Source: Opitutales bacterium (GTDB taxonomy: Bacteria; Verrucomicrobiota; Verrucomicrobiia; Opitutales; UBA953). Taken from it: a DNA stretch of 40,559 nucleotides. The stretch is taken from assembly GCA_017546455.1 (NCBI GenBank), contig JAFYWY010000028.1, forward strand, positions 1-40,559, read 5' to 3'. Below, one piece after another: positions 31,402 through 40,559 of this stretch (position 1 is the stretch's first letter; the number at the start of each line of letters is the position of its first letter). The position numbers and the translations under genes were made by a program. The notes beneath the pieces are model-generated. The model had not been told where the DNA came from. It saw nothing but the letters and a program-made list of their open reading frames with translations, and searched no databases.

Positions 31402-31469
31402 ATGTGCGGCCGGCAATCCGCAGCGACGGAAGCGGGCGGAGTTCGGCAATCAAAGTGCTACTTTTGGGG

Positions 31470-31498
31470 TTGCACATCGAAAAAAGTTCCCGTAGATT
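31470..31498 (+). promoter_or_regulatory. Candidate promoter of rplY
   Basis: TTGCAC (31470-31475) and TAGATT (31493-31498) stand 17 bases apart, about 85 bases before the rplY start. Both boxes match the consensus only partly. Confidence 0.35.
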
Positions 31499-31510
31499 GG
31501 GCAGTTCATT

Positions 31511-31531
31511 CTCGACTTGTCTTCGGTCGAG
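31511..31531 (+). promoter_or_regulatory. Leader hairpin upstream of rplY
   Basis: CTCGAC (31511-31516) pairs with GTCGAG (31526-31531) across nine bases inside the presumed rplY leader. It may act in autoregulation of the ribosomal protein, but no known motif is recognised. Confidence 0.25.
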
Positions 31532-31581
31532 GCGCGGCCGCAATCGTGCGGGACCGTGACTACACGAAGACACATCAAAAC

Positions 31582-32181
31582 ATGAAACAATACAAACTGA
31601 ATGTTAAGACGCGCGACGGAATCGGTCGTGGACCGGCACGTCGCCTCCGCGCTGCGGGAGCTATCCCGGGCGTAATCTACGGTAAGAACGAATCGAAACC
31701 GGTCACGATTGACGCGGTTGAGTTCCGCATGATGATGCGTGCCAAGGGCACGAGCGCTGCGCTCGTCGAAATCACGATCGACGAAACGAACACGATTCTC
31801 TCGGTCATTAAGGACTTCCAACGCAATGCGGTCTCCCAGAAGATCGTTCACGTGGACATCCTCGAAGTCGATCCGAACGCCCAAATGACGGCGACGATCC
31901 CGGTTCGCATCAAGGGCGACTGCGTCGGTGTTCTCACGGAAAACGGCATCCTCGAAGCGGCTCACGAAATCGTCGTTCGTTGCCTCCCGAAGGATCTCCC
32001 GGAATGCATCGAAGTCGACGTCTCGAACCTCCACGCCGGTCACACGATCCACATTGACGCTCTTCCGGCGATTGCGGGCGTTACGTTCCCGTCGAACCAG
32101 AACTCTGTCGTTGCCTCCTGCATCGCTCCTGAAGTCCAGGAAGAAGCAAGCGACGCTGCGGAAGGAAAGAAGAAGAAATAA
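31582..32181 (+). CDS. rplY: 50S ribosomal protein L25/general stress protein Ctc
   Basis: The 199-residue protein is the long (CTC) form of L25. The N-terminal 5S-rRNA-binding domain shows GIGRGPARRLRAAGAIPGVIYGKN and QRNAVSQKIVHVDILEVD. The C-terminal beta domain shows IPVRIKGDCVGV and DVSNLHAGHTIHIDAL, and a Lys tail ends it. ATG 31582 (MKQYKLNVKTRDGIG) is the family start; the frame upstream is only open by chance. It precedes pth, a common neighbour. Confidence 0.95.
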   Translation: MKQYKLNVKTRDGIGRGPARRLRAAGAIPGVIYGKNESKPVTIDAVEFRMMMRAKGTSAALVEITIDETNTILSVIKDFQRNAVSQKIVHVDILEVDPNAQMTATIPVRIKGDCVGVLTENGILEAAHEIVVRCLPKDLPECIEVDVSNLHAGHTIHIDALPAIAGVTFPSNQNSVVASCIAPEVQEEASDAAEGKKKK

Positions 32182-32240
32182 ATTCGGCTTCCCGCCTGAG
32201 TTTCACAATCGCGCCTCGGCGCCTGTTCTTTTAAATTAGT

Positions 32241-32822
32241 ATGCCCGTCTCAGTTATTTACGGTTTGGGCAATCCCGGCAGGGAGTACGAAACGACACGC
32301 CACAATGCGGGCTTTCGCGTCGTATCCGCCTTCGCGAAGAAGCTGAATGTCGACTTCCGCAAGGAAGCCGCTCTCCACGGCGAATTCGCAAAAGCCAAGA
32401 GTTCCTCCGGAACGCTTTGGCTCGGCAAGCCTCAAACCTACATGAATAACAGCGGCGAATGTGTCGGCGCTCACATGCGCTACCACAAACTCCTCCCCTC
32501 CGGCATTGTCGTTGTTTACGACGACATCACCTTAGCGCCCGGAGTCGTGAAAATCTCACAGGGAGGCGGCGACGGCGGTCACAACGGAATCAAAAGCATC
32601 ATCCGTCACTGCGGGAACGAATTCATTCGTTTTCGTGTCGGGATCGGAGCGAAGCCTTTCCGTGAACAACCGCTCTCGGATTTCGTCCTGGGCAAACTAA
32701 ACGAAGAAGAGACCAAGATTTTTGAAGCTCGTCAGGAACATTTCCTATATGGCTTGGACCTCCTTGTTAATCAGGGACTTCCCGCCGCACAAAACCTTAT
32801 AAACAGAAAAGAAAACAAATGA
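32241..32822 (+). CDS. pth: Peptidyl-tRNA hydrolase
   Basis: The 193-residue enzyme frees tRNA from stalled peptidyl-tRNA. All active-site motifs are present: YGLGNPGREYETTRHNAGF with catalytic His21, KPQTYMNNSG, VYDDITLAPG with the conserved Asp, and GGDGGHNGIKSII. Length is typical. It overlaps rpsF by ATGA (32819-32822), so they are translationally coupled. Confidence 0.97.
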   Translation: MPVSVIYGLGNPGREYETTRHNAGFRVVSAFAKKLNVDFRKEAALHGEFAKAKSSSGTLWLGKPQTYMNNSGECVGAHMRYHKLLPSGIVVVYDDITLAPGVVKISQGGGDGGHNGIKSIIRHCGNEFIRFRVGIGAKPFREQPLSDFVLGKLNEEETKIFEARQEHFLYGLDLLVNQGLPAAQNLINRKENK

Positions 32823-33106
32823 ACGACCTTAACAAATATCGTGTGAACATGATTTTTGATGTCCGCAGCGTCACCGCTGAAGCGCAGATCGAGAAAGTTA
32901 AAACGCTCCTCGGCACGCTCGGTGCGACCATCGAAGATGTGAAAGACCTCGGAGTCAAAGACTTTGTTCGCGTCACCAATCGCCGCATGCCGAGCGCACA
33001 CTACGTGCAGTTCGACGTTGCCGCCGCCACGACCCTCCCGGTTGTGTTCCGCGAAAAACTTCGTCTCGATCGCTCCATCAAGCGCATCCTGATCCAATCC
33101 CGCTAA
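32819..33106 (+). CDS. rpsF: 30S ribosomal protein S6
   Basis: The 95-residue protein is a short but complete S6: YRVNMIFDVRSV, then KDLGVKDFVRVTNRRMPSAHYVQFDV and the C-terminal LRLDRSIKRILIQ. It binds the central domain of 16S rRNA, usually with S18. It is followed by ssb in the order known from many bacteria, but the S18 gene that normally completes the set is absent here. Confidence 0.93.
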   Translation: MNDLNKYRVNMIFDVRSVTAEAQIEKVKTLLGTLGATIEDVKDLGVKDFVRVTNRRMPSAHYVQFDVAAATTLPVVFREKLRLDRSIKRILIQSR

Positions 33107-33140
33107 TTGCAGAATCCGAATCGGAAAGGAATCCGTCCCA

Positions 33141-33599
33141 ATGGCATCTTTCAATAAAGTGATTCTCATGGGCAATCTGACGCGCGACCCCGAGTTGCGC
33201 ACGCTCCCGAGCGGTCTCTCCGTCGCGCGCATCTCTATTGCCATCAATCGCACCTATCAATCCAAAGAAGGCGAAAAGAAAGAAGAAGTCACCTACGTCG
33301 ATGTCGATGCTTTCGGAAAGCAGGCGGAAACGATTTCCAAATGGTGCACGAAGGGCTCCGGCATCCACATTGAAGGACGCCTTCGCCTCGACCAGTGGGA
33401 CGACAAGAACACGGGCGAAAAACGCTCGAAGCTCGGCATCGTCCTGGAAAACTTCACCTTCGTCGGCGGTCGCGCCAATGCGACACCCGGCCAGGATTAC
33501 GAAGAATCCGCACCGGCTCCGCGTCGCGCCGCTCCGTCGGCCCCGCGTCCTTCGGCTCCGCCGCCGTCCGACATGGATGATGCGGACGTTCCGTTCTAA
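33141..33599 (+). CDS. ssb: Single-stranded DNA-binding protein
   Basis: The 152-residue protein has the OB fold of SSB (FNKVILMGNLTRDPELRTL, then VTYVDVDAFGKQAETISKW and IEGRLRLDQWDD), a Pro/Ala-rich linker and the acidic C-terminal tip DMDDADVPF that recruits repair and replication proteins. It lies between rpsF and rplI in a ribosomal-protein operon. Confidence 0.97.
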   Translation: MASFNKVILMGNLTRDPELRTLPSGLSVARISIAINRTYQSKEGEKKEEVTYVDVDAFGKQAETISKWCTKGSGIHIEGRLRLDQWDDKNTGEKRSKLGIVLENFTFVGGRANATPGQDYEESAPAPRRAAPSAPRPSAPPPSDMDDADVPF

Positions 33600-33647
33600 T
33601 TCCCATTCGCTTTAGCAAACATCATTAATATTTAAACAAGAAAAACT

Positions 33648-34196
33648 ATGGCACTCGCAGAAGTCCTCCTCAAAAAACCCGTCGCCGGCCTCGGCGCTGA
33701 AGGCGACCAAGTCAAGGTTCGCGCAGGGTTCGCACGCAACTTCCTCTTCCCGCAAGGCATTGCGGTTCCGATGACTGTGGCTAACCGCAAGCAGATTGAA
33801 GCGCTCAAGAAAGCGCGCGCTGCCCGCGAAGCACAGGAACTCGCAGACGCAAAGTCCGCCGCTGAAAAGCTCACGGGCCTCGCGCTCACCTTCGCAGTTA
33901 AGACCGGTGATGCCGGCAAGCTCTTCGGCTCGATCTCCACGACCGACATCGCGAAGAAGCTCGCGGAACAAGGTTTCGAAATCGAAAAGAAGGCAATCCA
34001 CCTCGAACACGGTGCGATCAAGCAGCTCGGCAAGACGACCGCTTCGGTTAAATTCCACGCGGAAGTTTCCGTCGAAATCGCAATCGAAGTCGTCTCCGAA
34101 AACCCGGTTGAAGAAGCCGCCGACGAAGCTCCGAAAGGCAAAAAGGGCGCCCGCAAGCCGCGCGCTCCGAAGGCTGAAGAAGCTGCCGCCGAATAA
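33648..34196 (+). CDS. rplI: 50S ribosomal protein L9
   Basis: The 182-residue protein has the N-terminal L9 domain (EVLLKKPVAGLGAEGDQVKV, AGFARNFLFPQGIAV), the long connecting helix (about 45-75) and the C-terminal domain (GKLFGSISTTDIAKKL). An extra tail of about 30 residues rich in Lys, Ala, Glu and Pro goes beyond the usual length of about 150. It closes the rpsF-ssb-rplI unit. Confidence 0.95.
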   Translation: MALAEVLLKKPVAGLGAEGDQVKVRAGFARNFLFPQGIAVPMTVANRKQIEALKKARAAREAQELADAKSAAEKLTGLALTFAVKTGDAGKLFGSISTTDIAKKLAEQGFEIEKKAIHLEHGAIKQLGKTTASVKFHAEVSVEIAIEVVSENPVEEAADEAPKGKKGARKPRAPKAEEAAAE

Positions 34197-34474: not shown

Positions 34475-37400
34475 TTAGGCGTTTATCTTCCTACGGCGCA
34501 AGAGCAATGCGACGAGCACGCGCAGCAAGACCACGAGGGCGAGCGCGCTGAAGGCCCATTTATCGTCAAGACGCTCGGGGCCGACGGGCGGCGGCGTATC
34601 GCGGAAGAAAACGAGGCTCGCGTCGGCATCCACATACGGATAGCGCTCCGTTTCAAAGGCGCAGCAGGGGATGAAATCGCCGAAACACTTCGGTACTACC
34701 GAGGAATTTTTCCCGATTGCGACCTTATCGGCGGGCAAACCGAAAATGCGGGAAACGGCACAGGTTCCGCCCGAAAGATTTTCGGAAAAATACCATTCGG
34801 CACGTGCCGGATGCGCGCTGGTGCGTAGCGCCTCGACCTTGGGCGCATTGCCCTCGGCAAAATTGCCGCGGTAAACGAATTCCACCCGAGTCGAACCGAC
34901 AGTCGCTTTCTTTCTCAAAAGCAAATAATACTCGTCGTCTCCGGCATCAAAGAGTTCGGCAGGACGCCCGTCCGTACGCAACTCCAGCATTTCCAGACCG
35001 GCAGCATCGATACGCAGCAAATCAGTCTGAGCCACATTCAATTCGAGCGTTTCCGCCGTAACGAATCCGTTGCGGGAGATTTCGGTAAAGCGTCGGATAC
35101 TCGGCGCCGAGAAGGAACCTTCCCGCACGTCGCTTGCCAGTTTCCGCCAATCACCGAGCGTCTTGTCGCTCATGTTGAGGATGAGCGTTTTCCCGACAAA
35201 ATCGGCCTCAAGCGCCGATGAACATTCCGGAGCGACGGAGAACACCGCGTTTTCCTCGAGATCAACCCGACCGCGCTGATCGCTCGCGTCCAAGGCATTG
35301 AGCGCGACAATTTCCGTTTTTCGGGAAAGGCGTTCGAAATACTCGATCTTGAACACGATGTCTCCGCGCATCGGTTTGGCAAAGCGGACCTCCCAGACAT
35401 TCCCGACAGGAACCGGCTTACCGTCGGCAGGACGGAAATGCTTAAGCGGAGCGGCATTGACGATATCCTCGCCCGAGAAGCGCGGCGCCAAAGCCGTTTC
35501 CGGCAAACAGACACGCACGACCTGACGAACTGCGTTTTCGACATTGTAAACGCAATCAACATCAACGCGGGCGTAACGTCCGAAGTTGAGCGGCGTAATA
35601 CGCTGCGTCCAATTTGCGGAAACGCGGGTTTCAAAAGAGCCGACGGAGAACGTCGCACTCCACTTATTGCCGAAATAACGGAACGCGAAATCAGCATCGG
35701 CTTCACCGACGGAAGCGTCGGTCGCCTGGGCTTCGCTCGTCTCCGCGGAGACCGTGCCGGGCTCCTCTTCCTCGGGAACGACTTCGACGATATTATTGCG
35801 TGCGCGCAGGCTCAGCTGCAGGCCTTCTTCCGTGTGAATGTAAAGTTCGCCGAGCTGACGCTGTGCGCCGTTGAAAACGATACGCGGAGCCGTCCAGGTC
35901 GGAGCGCCGACCGGAAACGCTCCCGCGAGCGCGATGCGGAAATTCTCTTCGCCAACCAAAGACTTTTTCAAATGAAGAGTCACTGTCCGCGAGTCATCCG
36001 CATCCTGGGATTCCGACCAGTAAGCCAACGCTTCGCCGGAGACGGATTCCACTTCCAACCCTTCCGGCAATGCGAACGAGAGACTGAAAACGTCCGCTCG
36101 GGAAACTTCCGCCGTCAAATCCATGACGAGCGCAACCTTGTCCTGATTGAGGACAATGCGGTCTTTCGAGCTGATGCGCAGGTTCGGTTTGACCTCGGAA
36201 AATGCGACATAGACGAGCGCATCGTCAACGACGGAACGGAAGGCGCGACGCAACGAAACGGTTTTGCCGTCGGCTGCCGCCCGGCCGAGCAACACCAGAG
36301 AAAACTCTTTTTCATCGACGACGACCAGCTTCGGCGCCAGCACTTCATCGACCTGCAATTCGTCTCCCGTTGCAATCCCGACGGTCTTGATGCCGTCTTC
36401 GCAGTCCAAAACATCCGGCGAGGCAAAGGCCAGCATTTTCCCGAGTTCGAGCGGAGCCTGGGAATAAATCGAAATTTCGACGGGCTCGGACTTTTTGGAA
36501 TCGAAGAGCACGGTCAACACCTTGTCGCGGCCGAAATTCCAACGGCGGATAGAATTGCCTTCGACGCGGGAAACTGAGAACGGCTCGGGGATGCGAATCT
36601 TAACTTCGTCAAATTCGCCCTGAATCGGAATCAGCTTGAGCAGATGAAACCCCTCGATGGTGCCGGCGGCGGGGACATAAAGATTGGAGTCTTCGGCAAA
36701 AAGCTCGAGGCTTTCCCGGCTTCGATCGCGCTCCCGCGGTTTCCAGAGAATACGTCGCTTTTCCTGCGGTTTGAAAACGATTTGCCCGGTTTGCAAAGTC
36801 CCGTCGGGCGAATCAACCGCAAGCGTGACTTCGCCTTCGGCGCCCAAACGGCTGTCCGGACGGGCGATGGAAACGGAAACGACATCGGCAGCGGCATTCC
36901 CCGTCGGCAAAGTCATTCCGCGGGCATCACGGCGCAGTCCCAATTCATACGCGAAGCGGGCGGAGAAAGTTCCCGGGCGATCCAAAACAATTTGATAAAC
37001 GATTCCGTCTTTGCCGCGGCGGCGCTCAAGGCGCATCGGAGCATCCGGAGAAATTTTGCGAAAGTCCGTAAGTACCGCCGGGGACGCGAGTAAGTCAAAG
37101 CGTTCCCCCGCCTTTCCTTTCACGCGGATTTCCCCGGAAGCCAGTACACGATCCGTCAAAATACTCATGTCCTGAACAATGCGCTCGGCGATTTCCTGCG
37201 GGCGGGCGAGCTCGCTTTCCAAGTCGCTGTCGTCGGCCCGCAACTCCGAATTTCCTGTCGCAAGCCCGAAGGCCAGCAAGCCGACAAGCAACGGTAGGGT
37301 TGCCGAAGCGGATTGCACCATCTTTTTGGGAAAAGCTTTCTTAAGTGCAAACCCGCAATCGATAATCAGCAGCACGAGTTCCGTAGCGACAAAGGCGGCA

Positions 37401-40400
37401 ATCAACGCGGGGATGCGATGTTCGATATCACTCGTTCCGCATACGAAAGCGCCGTAAAAACCGCAACGCCCCGCAAAACGCAGAATCGCGCTCCGGCGCC
37501 AAACGGCTCCGACGGCGAGCAGGAACGCCCCGGCAATCCAGATGAAAATTCCCGTGTTCAGATCCATATTAAAAAGCCGTTCTCCGAACGTTGCCCACGG
37601 AGCAAAGCGAGCGGCAACCGGCTCCCCGGCTCCGAATGCGGCAACGGAAAATTCGTAGCTCGGGCTGACGCAATCGCGCAGAATAGAGCTTCCGATCATA
37701 ATCACCGCGCCCAAGGCCATCGCGCAAACAAAGCCGAGGACAAAACGCCAGAAGCGTAGGCGGGTCGTAAGCAAAATAACGAGCGTGCCCGCGAAAACGC
37801 AGAATGCGGGGAACAAAACATTGTTCTGCGAGACCCTTTCCCCGATGGCCCGGAAGATATCTTCCCAAGAACCGCGGTTGCGGCGACCGTTCTCAAAATC
37901 GATGCCGGAAAAAGTCCCCGCGCCTTCCAAGCGAGCCGAAAGCACCGGGACATCAGCTCGCGGCAATGCGAGTTCCAAGCTCGGTTTGCCTGCGGCATAC
38001 GCTTCGCCGCAAAGCTCCAACTCGAAATACCCGCGTCCGCTCTTGACCAACAGCGGCACCGTGCAACGACGTCCGTCCGGCGCGAGAATACCGGTGTTTT
38101 CATCGACTTCTCCGAGCGGCGCCAGGCGATACAAATCCGCCCCTTCCGGCAAATTCAGAGTCAGCGCCTCCTCTCCGGAATTCAGGTATTCAAAGCGGCA
38201 CGCAAGCATTCGGGACCCGTCCGCCCTGCGTTCAAGGTGGCCCGTTGCAGAAGTAATCACACAATGCGCAAACTGCTTCTCCGGCAACATCGCAAAATCG
38301 AGTGTCAGCTCAAACGGGCGCTGAACATACTGGAATGCACTCAGCAAAACGTTTCCGCCGCGCGAAGCAAAATCCTCTCCGGGAACATTCGCCCGCGGAA
38401 CTTTCAGAAATGCGGATTTCTCGGAACTTTCTTCCGGCGAAGCAATCGCAACGGCCTCATCGCTCGTAATGAAAATTTCGCCCTGCTCGCCCGAGACGTC
38501 AACCAAGCGAACTCCGGAAAAATCGGCCGAACAAACCGTTGTTCCCGCAGCGTTTACCGGAATCTCAAAACGGACAGTCAAAGAAAACGCCCCCTGAGTC
38601 GGCGTCCGAAGCGGAACCGTCAGCAAGCCGTCTTTTTCGCTTGGCGGCAAAAACAAATCGGTGTTTTCAATCTGAAGAAGCTTGGCACCCTTCGGCAACG
38701 CGAGACGCAATTCGTCAACGGCTTCCGCCCCTGAATCGCAACGGACGACGGCATTTCCGCGAACGGCTTCCCGCCCGATTCGGTAAACGGTCGATACATT
38801 CCCATGGAGCGCCGAGATCATCTTTTCGACGCGAACCTCTGCCGCCCAAACGCCGCCGCGCATACGGAAAACCTGCTGCGGCAGAGCGCCTCGGGACTGC
38901 GGATAAAACTCCGCCGGCACCTCGGAAAGTCCATCCAGCTTAGAAGGAATCAGGCGCATATTTTTTGCGCCCGCAAAGCCGACGAAGCCGCGAACAAAGC
39001 GTGCACCCGGGAAACGCAGGCTCCGAAGAAGGCAATCGGCGTCCGAAGATGTCGTTTCCTTGCTGACGGCCACACGGATTTCCTGCTCGCCGGACAACGG
39101 TTCGGTGAAAACGATTTTCAGGTCTCTGAACCCGTCCACAGCCTCTTCCGAGAGTTCGTAGCCTGCCAGCAAAGCAGTCTCAACGGATTCGACCTTATAG
39201 TCGTCTGGCACGCGAACATGCCATTCGTAGAGCGGTGCGGCGCGGATCTTAAGCTCCTGACGGGAAACCGCGACGATGCGGTGCGAATCGAAATAGCAAC
39301 GCGTCGTCTGTGCGACGGAGACGTCGGGACGAATCGCATCGACAAAGAATTCCAAGCTCTCGGCGCTGTTGGAAATGCGGTAAACGGTCTGCTCGGCAGA
39401 CTCGGCGACGGGCGCAAAAAAATCGTCCTCGCGCGGGAACGTTGATACTGCGACCTGCGTTAACCCGTTCTGCGGAAGCAATTCGCTGCGAAGGACACCC
39501 TCGTTGAGTAAGCGTAAAAACTCGTTGAACCGCACGCAAACGGCTGCGTCCGGTTGGTTTGCAAGCGGAACGATTCGCAGCGGGCGGAAAGTCGCCGGCA
39601 AGGCGTCAAAAACGCTGCGGGCCTCAATACGCAGCGTATACGCCCCGCGTTTTTGACGGCTCAGCACAACGTTGAGGCGGCGCTTGTCTCCGACCTTTTC
39701 CACGTTCCAGGAAAGGAGATCGACGCCGGTCACATTCAGAATTTCTCCCTCTCCGTGCAAATCGAAAACAAGATTGGAGAGTGCCCCTTGGGAAATCATC
39801 AATGCGACTTCTTCCCGCTGGCGCAGCATTCCCGTCACGATTCGCCATTCGCTACAGGCATCGGCGGAGAATACACAGGCGGAAAATTCCGGCGGAGTTC
39901 CGGAAACTTCCTGCCAACGCAAATCAAAGGCCCCGCTGGCCGGCAAAAATCCCTCGTAGGCGTCTCCGTTCTTCTGAGGAACCGAAACGCTCGACGGCGC
40001 AAAGAGGATTTCCCCGTTCAATCCTTTCAGGGCAAACGGCGCGACCTGAATCGCAGGAACGGCAAAGTTCAGGCGCTGCCAACCGTCCTCCGCGCTGATG
40101 CGGGCATCGAACTCAAGATTCACCTCGAAATCACCGCGATGCGGGAATTTGAGGTAGTAAATCGGCAGATTGGTCTCGGGATTAATTGCCGCGCGCACCG
40201 AGAAATCGGAAGAGGCTTCGAAATTTTTCAGGGCCGCGTCACCGGAAAGAACGGCAATTTCCGCACCGACTTCGCGGACGCTCGCAACGGCACGCATACG
40301 GAAATGCGCTGCCCCGCGCTCGATCGCACCGCGCAGCGAAAAGGATTCCAGCGCAACCGGCGCAAGCAATTCGTTGCCGCGCGCAATATCCAAGCGCAGA

Positions 40401-40559
40401 GAAGGCGTCCCGTTGATGCTGAACGCCAATTCGTTACGCTCGCTCGTCCCGATCGGCAAAAGCCCGCGCGACTGTTTTCCGTAAAGGCGAATGTCCGGCA
40501 TCGAGACGATACGCACCATCCCGGAAAAAGCGGTTGCATCCGTCCCGGTGAACATCATC
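34475..40559 (-). CDS. Giant membrane-anchored, beta-rich exported protein (5' end outside window)
   Basis: At least 2027 residues are in the window, and the frame is open to the right edge, so the start is missing. Numbering from the edge, residues 1-900 form a first ectodomain, about 915-1105 hold four or five membrane segments (FCVFAGTLVILLTTRL, IFIWIAGAFLLAVGAVW, FVATELVLLIIDCGFAL, LPLLVGLLAFGLATG), about 1110-2000 form a second ectodomain, and a last membrane helix ends in RRRKINA. Met1080 followed by VQSASATLPLLVGLLAF looks like an internal signal peptide, so the gene may be a fusion of two ancestral exported proteins. A beta module of about 55 residues recurs, with the rhythm LRLALPKGAKLLQIENTD, SLSFALPEGLEVESVSGE and VKIRIPEPFSVSRVEGN, then a strand ending in a hydrophobic xVxL run. 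I recognise no enzyme domain. Its role is unknown, perhaps structural or adhesive in the envelope. Confidence 0.65.
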   Translation of the reverse strand, partial: MMFTGTDATAFSGMVRIVSMPDIRLYGKQSRGLLPIGTSERNELAFSINGTPSLRLDIARGNELLAPVALESFSLRGAIERGAAHFRMRAVASVREVGAEIAVLSGDAALKNFEASSDFSVRAAINPETNLPIYYLKFPHRGDFEVNLEFDARISAEDGWQRLNFAVPAIQVAPFALKGLNGEILFAPSSVSVPQKNGDAYEGFLPASGAFDLRWQEVSGTPPEFSACVFSADACSEWRIVTGMLRQREEVALMISQGALSNLVFDLHGEGEILNVTGVDLLSWNVEKVGDKRRLNVVLSRQKRGAYTLRIEARSVFDALPATFRPLRIVPLANQPDAAVCVRFNEFLRLLNEGVLRSELLPQNGLTQVAVSTFPREDDFFAPVAESAEQTVYRISNSAESLEFFVDAIRPDVSVAQTTRCYFDSHRIVAVSRQELKIRAAPLYEWHVRVPDDYKVESVETALLAGYELSEEAVDGFRDLKIVFTEPLSGEQEIRVAVSKETTSSDADCLLRSLRFPGARFVRGFVGFAGAKNMRLIPSKLDGLSEVPAEFYPQSRGALPQQVFRMRGGVWAAEVRVEKMISALHGNVSTVYRIGREAVRGNAVVRCDSGAEAVDELRLALPKGAKLLQIENTDLFLPPSEKDGLLTVPLRTPTQGAFSLTVRFEIPVNAAGTTVCSADFSGVRLVDVSGEQGEIFITSDEAVAIASPEESSEKSAFLKVPRANVPGEDFASRGGNVLLSAFQYVQRPFELTLDFAMLPEKQFAHCVITSATGHLERRADGSRMLACRFEYLNSGEEALTLNLPEGADLYRLAPLGEVDENTGILAPDGRRCTVPLLVKSGRGYFELELCGEAYAAGKPSLELALPRADVPVLSARLEGAGTFSGIDFENGRRNRGSWEDIFRAIGERVSQNNVLFPAFCVFAGTLVILLTTRLRFWRFVLGFVCAMALGAVIMIGSSILRDCVSPSYEFSVAAFGAGEPVAARFAPWATFGERLFNMDLNTGIFIWIAGAFLLAVGAVWRRSAILRFAGRCGFYGAFVCGTSDIEHRIPALIAAFVATELVLLIIDCGFALKKAFPKKMVQSASATLPLLVGLLAFGLATGNSELRADDSDLESELARPQEIAERIVQDMSILTDRVLASGEIRVKGKAGERFDLLASPAVLTDFRKISPDAPMRLERRRGKDGIVYQIVLDRPGTFSARFAYELGLRRDARGMTLPTGNAAADVVSVSIARPDSRLGAEGEVTLAVDSPDGTLQTGQIVFKPQEKRRILWKPRERDRSRESLELFAEDSNLYVPAAGTIEGFHLLKLIPIQGEFDEVKIRIPEPFSVSRVEGNSIRRWNFGRDKVLTVLFDSKKSEPVEISIYSQAPLELGKMLAFASPDVLDCEDGIKTVGIATGDELQVDEVLAPKLVVVDEKEFSLVLLGRAAADGKTVSLRRAFRSVVDDALVYVAFSEVKPNLRISSKDRIVLNQDKVALVMDLTAEVSRADVFSLSFALPEGLEVESVSGEALAYWSESQDADDSRTVTLHLKKSLVGEENFRIALAGAFPVGAPTWTAPRIVFNGAQRQLGELYIHTEEGLQLSLRARNNIVEVVPEEEEPGTVSAETSEAQATDASVGEADADFAFRYFGNKWSATFSVGSFETRVSANWTQRITPLNFGRYARVDVDCVYNVENAVRQVVRVCLPETALAPRFSGEDIVNAAPLKHFRPADGKPVPVGNVWEVRFAKPMRGDIVFKIEYFERLSRKTEIVALNALDASDQRGRVDLEENAVFSVAPECSSALEADFVGKTLILNMSDKTLGDWRKLASDVREGSFSAPSIRRFTEISRNGFVTAETLELNVAQTDLLRIDAAGLEMLELRTDGRPAELFDAGDDEYYLLLRKKATVGSTRVEFVYRGNFAEGNAPKVEALRTSAHPARAEWYFSENLSGGTCAVSRIFGLPADKVAIGKNSSVVPKCFGDFIPCCAFETERYPYVDADASLVFFRDTPPPVGPERLDDKWAFSALALVVLLRVLVALLLRRRKINA

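Follow-up and report, generated by a model that had tools for sequence, protein, structure and literature searches.

The window analyzed here is a stretch of 40,559 nucleotides from an Opitutales bacterium and constitutes the entire contig C13 of a source genome of 2.15 Mb in 105 contigs. It contains a minus-strand open reading frame of 2027 codons, at positions 34475-40558, that is truncated at the end of the contig. Another contig of the genome, C96, opens with 450 bases that correspond to window positions 40110-40559 with 4 mismatches, and the reading frame carries on across this overlap to a start on C96, 145 codons upstream of the part in the window (L003:3-884). The extension to the gene start that the initial annotation had called for thus added 145 residues, among them an N-terminal signal peptide, MYRTLFVLLTVFQLFILSAAG, which is encoded on C96. 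The complete product, referred to below as the giant protein, would be 2172 amino acids long, with the join of C13 and C96 based on contig overlap rather than on reads. Residues are given in window numbering unless stated otherwise; full-length numbering is the window residue plus 145.

A gene for a LOG/PF03641 protein (L003:930-1877) lies on C96 on the same strand and ends approximately 46 bases before the start of the giant gene; it was not seen beside the giant gene at the other loci that we looked at. The terminus of C96 (L003:9975-12805) encodes fragments of YD/Rhs-type proteins in which the motif RDPIEEQGG(T/L)NLYAFVGN occurs twice. On the other side, plus-strand open reading frames at window positions 31402-34196 adjoin the giant gene and read by eye as bL25, Pth, SSB and bL9, with no functional tie to the giant protein evident.

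Domain plan and the internal signal-like segment

The giant protein consists of a first ectodomain, six predicted membrane helices, the sixth of which is signal-like, a second ectodomain and a C-terminal anchor. This plan, which had been proposed from the window alone, was borne out and is also found in the relatives. All features lie on the minus strand. The part of ectodomain 1 in the window (37844-40558) is predicted from profile repeats, structural models and fold comparison to be a series of beta domains. It is followed by TM1 (residues 914-932; 37763-37819), TM2 (model helix 935-964; 37667-37756) and TM3 (1000-1019; 37502-37561), each supported by membrane-helix prediction and by the model, and by a weak helix, TM3b (1024-1041; 37436-37489), which makes the helix count even and forms a separate peak in some relatives. 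TM4 (1048-1075; 37334-37417), placed by alignment and model, is followed by the positive stretch KKAFPKK and then by the internal signal-peptide-like segment, MVQSASATLPLLVGLLAFGLATGNSELRA (residues 1080-1108; 37235-37321), with a possible signal peptidase site after A1108. Ectodomain 2 (34574-37234) leads to the predicted anchor helix with its positive tail RRRKINA (34481-34564; prediction and model). In the AlphaFold model, the central cluster likewise contains six helices, including the weak one between TM3 and TM4.

These features fit a topology in which ectodomain 1 lies outside, TM1 leads in, TM2 out, TM3 in, TM3b out, TM4 in and the signal-like segment out, so that ectodomain 2 is again outside and the anchor leads in. 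Net-charge differences across the segments alternate as expected for this arrangement. Given the internal signal-like helix and the C-terminal anchor, both arms would be on the periplasmic side.

Residue 1080 is a methionine that opens the segment MVQSASATLPLLVGLLAFGLATG, and this residue with its hydrophobic run had been read as a former signal peptide. The signal-like character of the segment stands, since its basic stretch, hydrophobic run and small residues are kept across the phylum in the alignment, but the methionine itself is not conserved. At the column of A1108, 57 of the 64 non-gap rows have A, G, S or T. It is possible that signal peptidase cleaves at this internal signal. The gene would then encode a polyprotein that signal peptidase I cuts into two separate anchored periplasmic proteins, as in the Bradyrhizobium cytochrome b/c1 precursor, where one precursor is cut by signal peptidase I. 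Consistent with this explanation, the segment has a positively charged n-region, a run of hydrophobic residues and a small amino acid in the A1108 column throughout the phylum, and in one genome, G028, the second half stands alone behind a signal peptide of its own. Against it, the uncharged run of the segment is no shorter than those of the TM helices, and a single chain could keep the two arms together on purpose. We also considered the frequency of AxA after the segment as proof of cleavage. It is higher than after other TM segments but failed composition-matched shuffles: AxA was present in 32 of 66 members, not above shuffles of their own Ala-rich stretches (mean 26.5, maximum 38). On balance, the polyprotein is a tentative explanation to which we give less than an even chance. 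An internal translation start at Met1080, yielding a second, shorter product, is very improbable and was ruled out, for although an ATG stands before the signal-like stretch, nearly all relatives, including the nearest, lack a methionine at this position, and the upstream sequence TTTTCCCAAAAAG lacks a suitably spaced purine run resembling a ribosome-binding site.

Repeated units, ancient duplication and predicted fold

The initial annotation had described a module with the rhythm LPxGxxVxxVxGxxL recurring at about 38700, 38140, 36590, 36060 and 35500. Repeats were detected by profile at these places and elsewhere, whereas the literal motif occurs at close to chance frequency: four sites in the giant protein have 6 of its 7 positions, compared with a mean of 1.9 and a maximum of 6 in shuffled sequences, a count that is barely above chance and not significant alone for a single protein. 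Self-comparison of a profile of 66 members, in contrast, revealed strong repeats. In full-length numbering, residues 34-135 match residues 361-460 (98.6%, E 1e-15), a unit of roughly 175-190 amino acids (175-187 in the self-comparison) is repeated within each half with an extra unit at 34-180, and residues 219-1008 are collinear with residues 1271-2061.

The two halves are also related to each other by direct comparison. The best blastp match across halves joined residues 61-866 of one relative (L037) to residues 80-860 of another (L041; 22%, E 1.9e-31). In a tree of halves, the N-terminal and C-terminal halves formed two clades with support of 1.0 and branched alike within both, which places the duplication before the spread of the family. 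On this sequence evidence, ectodomains 1 and 2 are copies of one ancestral ectodomain that arose by a single ancient tandem duplication. The suggestion that two exported proteins had fused was therefore not upheld, and a fusion of unrelated proteins is ruled out by the blastp match, the profile collinearity and the tree.

Every one of the 65 relatives that reach 1900 amino acids carries both halves in one open reading frame, and this one-frame form is the old state. The split versions that had been proposed for a search are represented by one case, the stand-alone second half in G028 (L042:5843-9268), which lies behind an unrelated PEP-CTERM gene and is known from a single metagenome-assembled genome of 79% completeness. 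This half nests inside the C-terminal halves in the tree, which indicates a derived state due to later split or loss. A distant tandem subtype was also observed, in which a 1123-amino-acid single-ectodomain gene overlaps a 2527-amino-acid gene, both related to the giant gene (L038:5531-16482); similar pairs, of about 1160-1244 plus 2360-2630 amino acids, are found in other genomes of the phylum.

Neither the giant protein nor sampled diverse members gave any match above cut-off in Pfam, NCBIfam or PDB sequences. The earlier view that no known family is evident therefore holds at the level of sequence, but the fold itself is not new. The structure prediction that had been recommended yielded repeated beta modules in AlphaFold models of both halves, one of ectodomain 2 (mean pLDDT 80.8, pTM 0.51) and one of ectodomain 1 with the membrane cluster (mean pLDDT 80.7, pTM 0.46); with pTM at only 0.46-0.51, the models can be relied on more for the single units than for the way these are placed along the arm. 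The two independent models led to the same fold neighbors. Single units in both matched the N-terminal beta domain of M1 aminopeptidases (Z about 11-12, rmsd 3.3-4.3 Å, approximately 150-165 residues), and pairs of units matched ribophorin I/Ost1 (VIA Z 12.4-14.8, about 300 residues), where the high rmsd is probably due to hinge differences.

In ectodomain 1, the predicted unit at residues 221-409 (39332-39898) matched LTA4H with Z 11.9 and rmsd 4.1 over 164 residues. An Ost1-like pair follows, formed by residues 410-580 (38819-39331; LTA4H N-domain, Z 11.9, rmsd 3.9, 160 residues) and residues 581-769 (38252-38818; profile repeats and fold), the latter containing the copy previously placed at 38700. 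In ectodomain 2, unit 1 (residues 1115-1275; 36734-37216) matched the LTA4H N-domain with Z 11.6 and rmsd 3.5-4 over 149-157 residues, and units 2 and 3 (residues 1284-1643; 35630-36709) formed a ribophorin I/Ost1-like tandem with Z 14.8 over 313 residues. The modeled units thus resemble the beta domain of the M1-aminopeptidase N-domain/Ost1 type, and membership in either family is not claimed. That the giant protein is an M1-family peptidase, or a degenerate one, is extremely improbable even though N-domain matches with Z 11-12 to LTA4H, ERAP1 and PepN were obtained for several of the units: the active-site motifs HExxH and G(A/G)MEN were found in 0 of 66 members, on which ground an M1-family enzyme was rejected, no catalytic-domain match was obtained, Pfam M1 was negative, and M1 proteins have one N-domain where the giant protein has several in series.

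Near the end of ectodomain 2, members outside the genus of the window have a TPR-like insert (positions ~870-930 of the profile of alignment A2). The genus of the window lacks this insert, and the weak TPR matches of other members fall within it.

Distribution and the conserved sigma-VWA operon

A scan of 84,980 species genomes identified 88 relatives, and we retained 80. Their titles nearly all name Verrucomicrobiota (Opitutales, Pedosphaera, Chthoniobacter, Limisphaerales and others), the exceptions being two titled only 'bacterium' and one Rudaea; this restriction to the phylum rests on a contig scan that is sensitive only to fairly close relatives. The titles of four loci, L096 (Rudaea sp., a metagenome-assembled genome), L079, L090 and L107 (Akkermansia muciniphila), fit the gene poorly, and a binning or naming error is likely in these cases, as Rudaea is a proteobacterium. 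Within a 288-genome sample of the phylum, matches were found in 67, including weak ones from the distant tandem subtype. Full-length relatives are 2000-2660 amino acids long, and 66 full-length members have the same plan. The proposal of an envelope protein of this phylum thus gained support. Of seven further genomes in the window's genus, six had homologues with approximately 40% identity, bringing the gene to 7 of 8, and more distant homologues occur in its family and order. Among named organisms, Candidatus Spyradosoma merdigallinarum (L048) is the closest relative, along with other gut Opitutales. The gene is also present in Chthoniobacter flavus (L080), and a partial copy occurs in Geminisphaera colitermitum TAV2 (L067; draft genome), which makes the family open to testing. 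No match was found in the plasmid collection.

Outside the genus of the window, 41 of the 42 loci that extend 6 kb or more upstream have the order ECF sigma factor, YfbK-type VWA protein, giant protein on one strand, with a gap between the latter two genes that is mostly less than 200 bases. Pfam searches of sampled cases identified sigma-70 regions 2 and 4 only in the sigma factor and VWA, vWF_A and YfbK_C in its neighbor. The VWA partners are 743-1717 amino acids long and mostly consist of an N-terminus of approximately 100 residues, one TM segment, a very variable linker and a VWA domain with MIDAS; both MIDAS motifs that we sought were present in 43 of 46, and the TM segment lies approximately 100-190 residues from the called start in nearly all. 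Judged by its position, length and operon, the N-terminus is reminiscent of an anti-sigma factor, and it gave no Pfam anti-sigma match. The linker between TM segment and VWA domain is hypervariable and in places mosaic-like (L119:1089-6242, L080:5295-9932). Its contents include TPR and PATR repeats (Pfam PATR 1.4e-11 in L119), as well as a stretch in L080 that looks secretin-like by eye and a weak secretin match in L088.

At the window's own locus, the upstream gene is the LOG/PF03641 gene on C96, and no sigma-YfbK operon is present. YfbK is absent from all eight genomes of the genus, which on this evidence has lost it while keeping the giant gene. As a consequence, the operon is invisible from the window sequence alone. 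No published description of the operon or the giant protein was found in the open-access papers searched.

Proposed role and comparison with known systems

We propose, with a probability of roughly 0.5, that the giant protein is an undescribed inner-membrane-anchored periplasmic protein with two paralogous arms, which acts as partner or output of an ECF/VWA envelope-signaling circuit. Each arm would consist of about four to five beta units of the M1-aminopeptidase N-domain/Ost1 fold, without the enzyme part, and the arms would be joined by the six-helix cluster, in which the final helix resembles a signal peptide belonging to the duplicated copy. The ancestral operon would have supplied an ECF sigma factor, a bitopic protein with a cytoplasmic anti-sigma-like N-terminus, a TM segment and a periplasmic MIDAS-type VWA/YfbK domain, and the giant protein itself. 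A role in envelope signaling or maintenance, with the giant protein as the component that meets the periplasm, is favored by the conserved gene linkage, by a VWA partner that is bitopic and by two arms in the periplasm. Furthermore, the retention of the giant gene in a gut genus that lost YfbK implies that the protein works without the circuit and has an envelope job of its own, with the sigma/VWA pair as its regulator and not the sole reason for its existence.

In the most likely mode of action, the arms would make contact within the periplasm with the cell wall, the outer membrane or an envelope ligand, and the VWA protein would watch the giant protein or the ligand through its MIDAS while holding the sigma factor. 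A change in contact would free the sigma factor, leading to more giant protein and to expression of other envelope genes. A more specific form of this proposal, which we put forward only tentatively, is a three-part envelope-sensing system of sigma factor, VWA switch and twin-armed giant protein, possibly cut at the internal signal, in which the giant protein would sense the state of the cell wall or the outer membrane and pass this on by way of the VWA protein. The analysis shows the gene family with its duplication and repeats, a predicted fold, topology signals, the operon and the loss of YfbK; contact between the VWA and giant proteins, sigma binding by the YfbK N-terminus, sensing, the ligand, the function and any cleavage at the internal signal are what we infer. 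As counterweights, operon partners can be co-regulated without contact, and the window's own genus has no sigma/VWA circuit.

It is alternatively possible, although rather unlikely in our judgment, that the arms are purely structural or adhesive, as a periplasm-spanning scaffold or a surface adhesin, and that the sigma and VWA genes set only their amount. The giant gene is kept without YfbK in the window's genus, no enzyme motif was found, and Foldseek also lists integrin alpha chains among the matches to the models (E 1e-8). The integrin matches, considered for a propeller head with thigh and calf domains in register, have TM-scores of only 0.10-0.14 with rmsd of 20-48 Å, whole-chain scores that are meaningless here and reflect only serial beta domains. 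The near-constant linkage to one sigma/VWA pair fits a tighter tie than mere dosage. We favor the two-armed protein as partner or output of an ECF/VWA circuit.

What began as a lone odd open reading frame is a phylum-wide uncharacterized gene family with a near-constant regulatory operon, and this linkage outside the gut genus suggests that a system for sensing or building the envelope awaits description. In the giant protein, bacteria would have a protein that strings together M1N/Ost1-type units, whose fold was otherwise encountered in this analysis in enzymes and in the oligosaccharyltransferase of eukaryotes. It would also represent a natural case of an exported protein that duplicated and whose second signal peptide turned internal.

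Ribophorin I/Ost1 is an oligosaccharyltransferase subunit in the ER lumen with two units and one TM segment. Like the giant protein, it combines tandem luminal beta units of the same predicted fold (Z 12-15) with a membrane anchor. The giant protein differs in having two arms of several units each and a cluster of six helices; the conserved operon contains no known oligosaccharyltransferase partner and no glycosylation gene, and no sequence match to Ost1 or M1 was found for the giant or sampled members in Pfam or PDB sequences. With the M1 aminopeptidases LTA4H, ERAP1 and PepN, its units have the N-domain fold in common at the fold level only, and the giant protein has N-domain-like units in series in place of a catalytic domain with HExxH. 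E. coli YfbK shares the Pfam domains YfbK_C, VWA and vWF_A with the giant's neighbor, which is longer and bitopic and has an anti-sigma-like N-terminus and a hypervariable linker. Inner-membrane-tethered YfbK-like VWA proteins of Verrucomicrobia, encoded with tolQ/tolR-like genes, are described as motor-driven force transducers of the PVC group in the accessible portion of PMC12204202, which does not mention the giant protein; in contrast, no tolQ/tolR-like gene was seen in the conserved operon of the giant. Finally, as in pairs of ECF sigma and membrane anti-sigma factors, an ECF sigma gene lies beside that of a bitopic protein whose N-terminal stretch of approximately 100 residues is predicted to be cytoplasmic, and to this pair the giant operon adds a VWA sensor half and the giant protein as a third gene.
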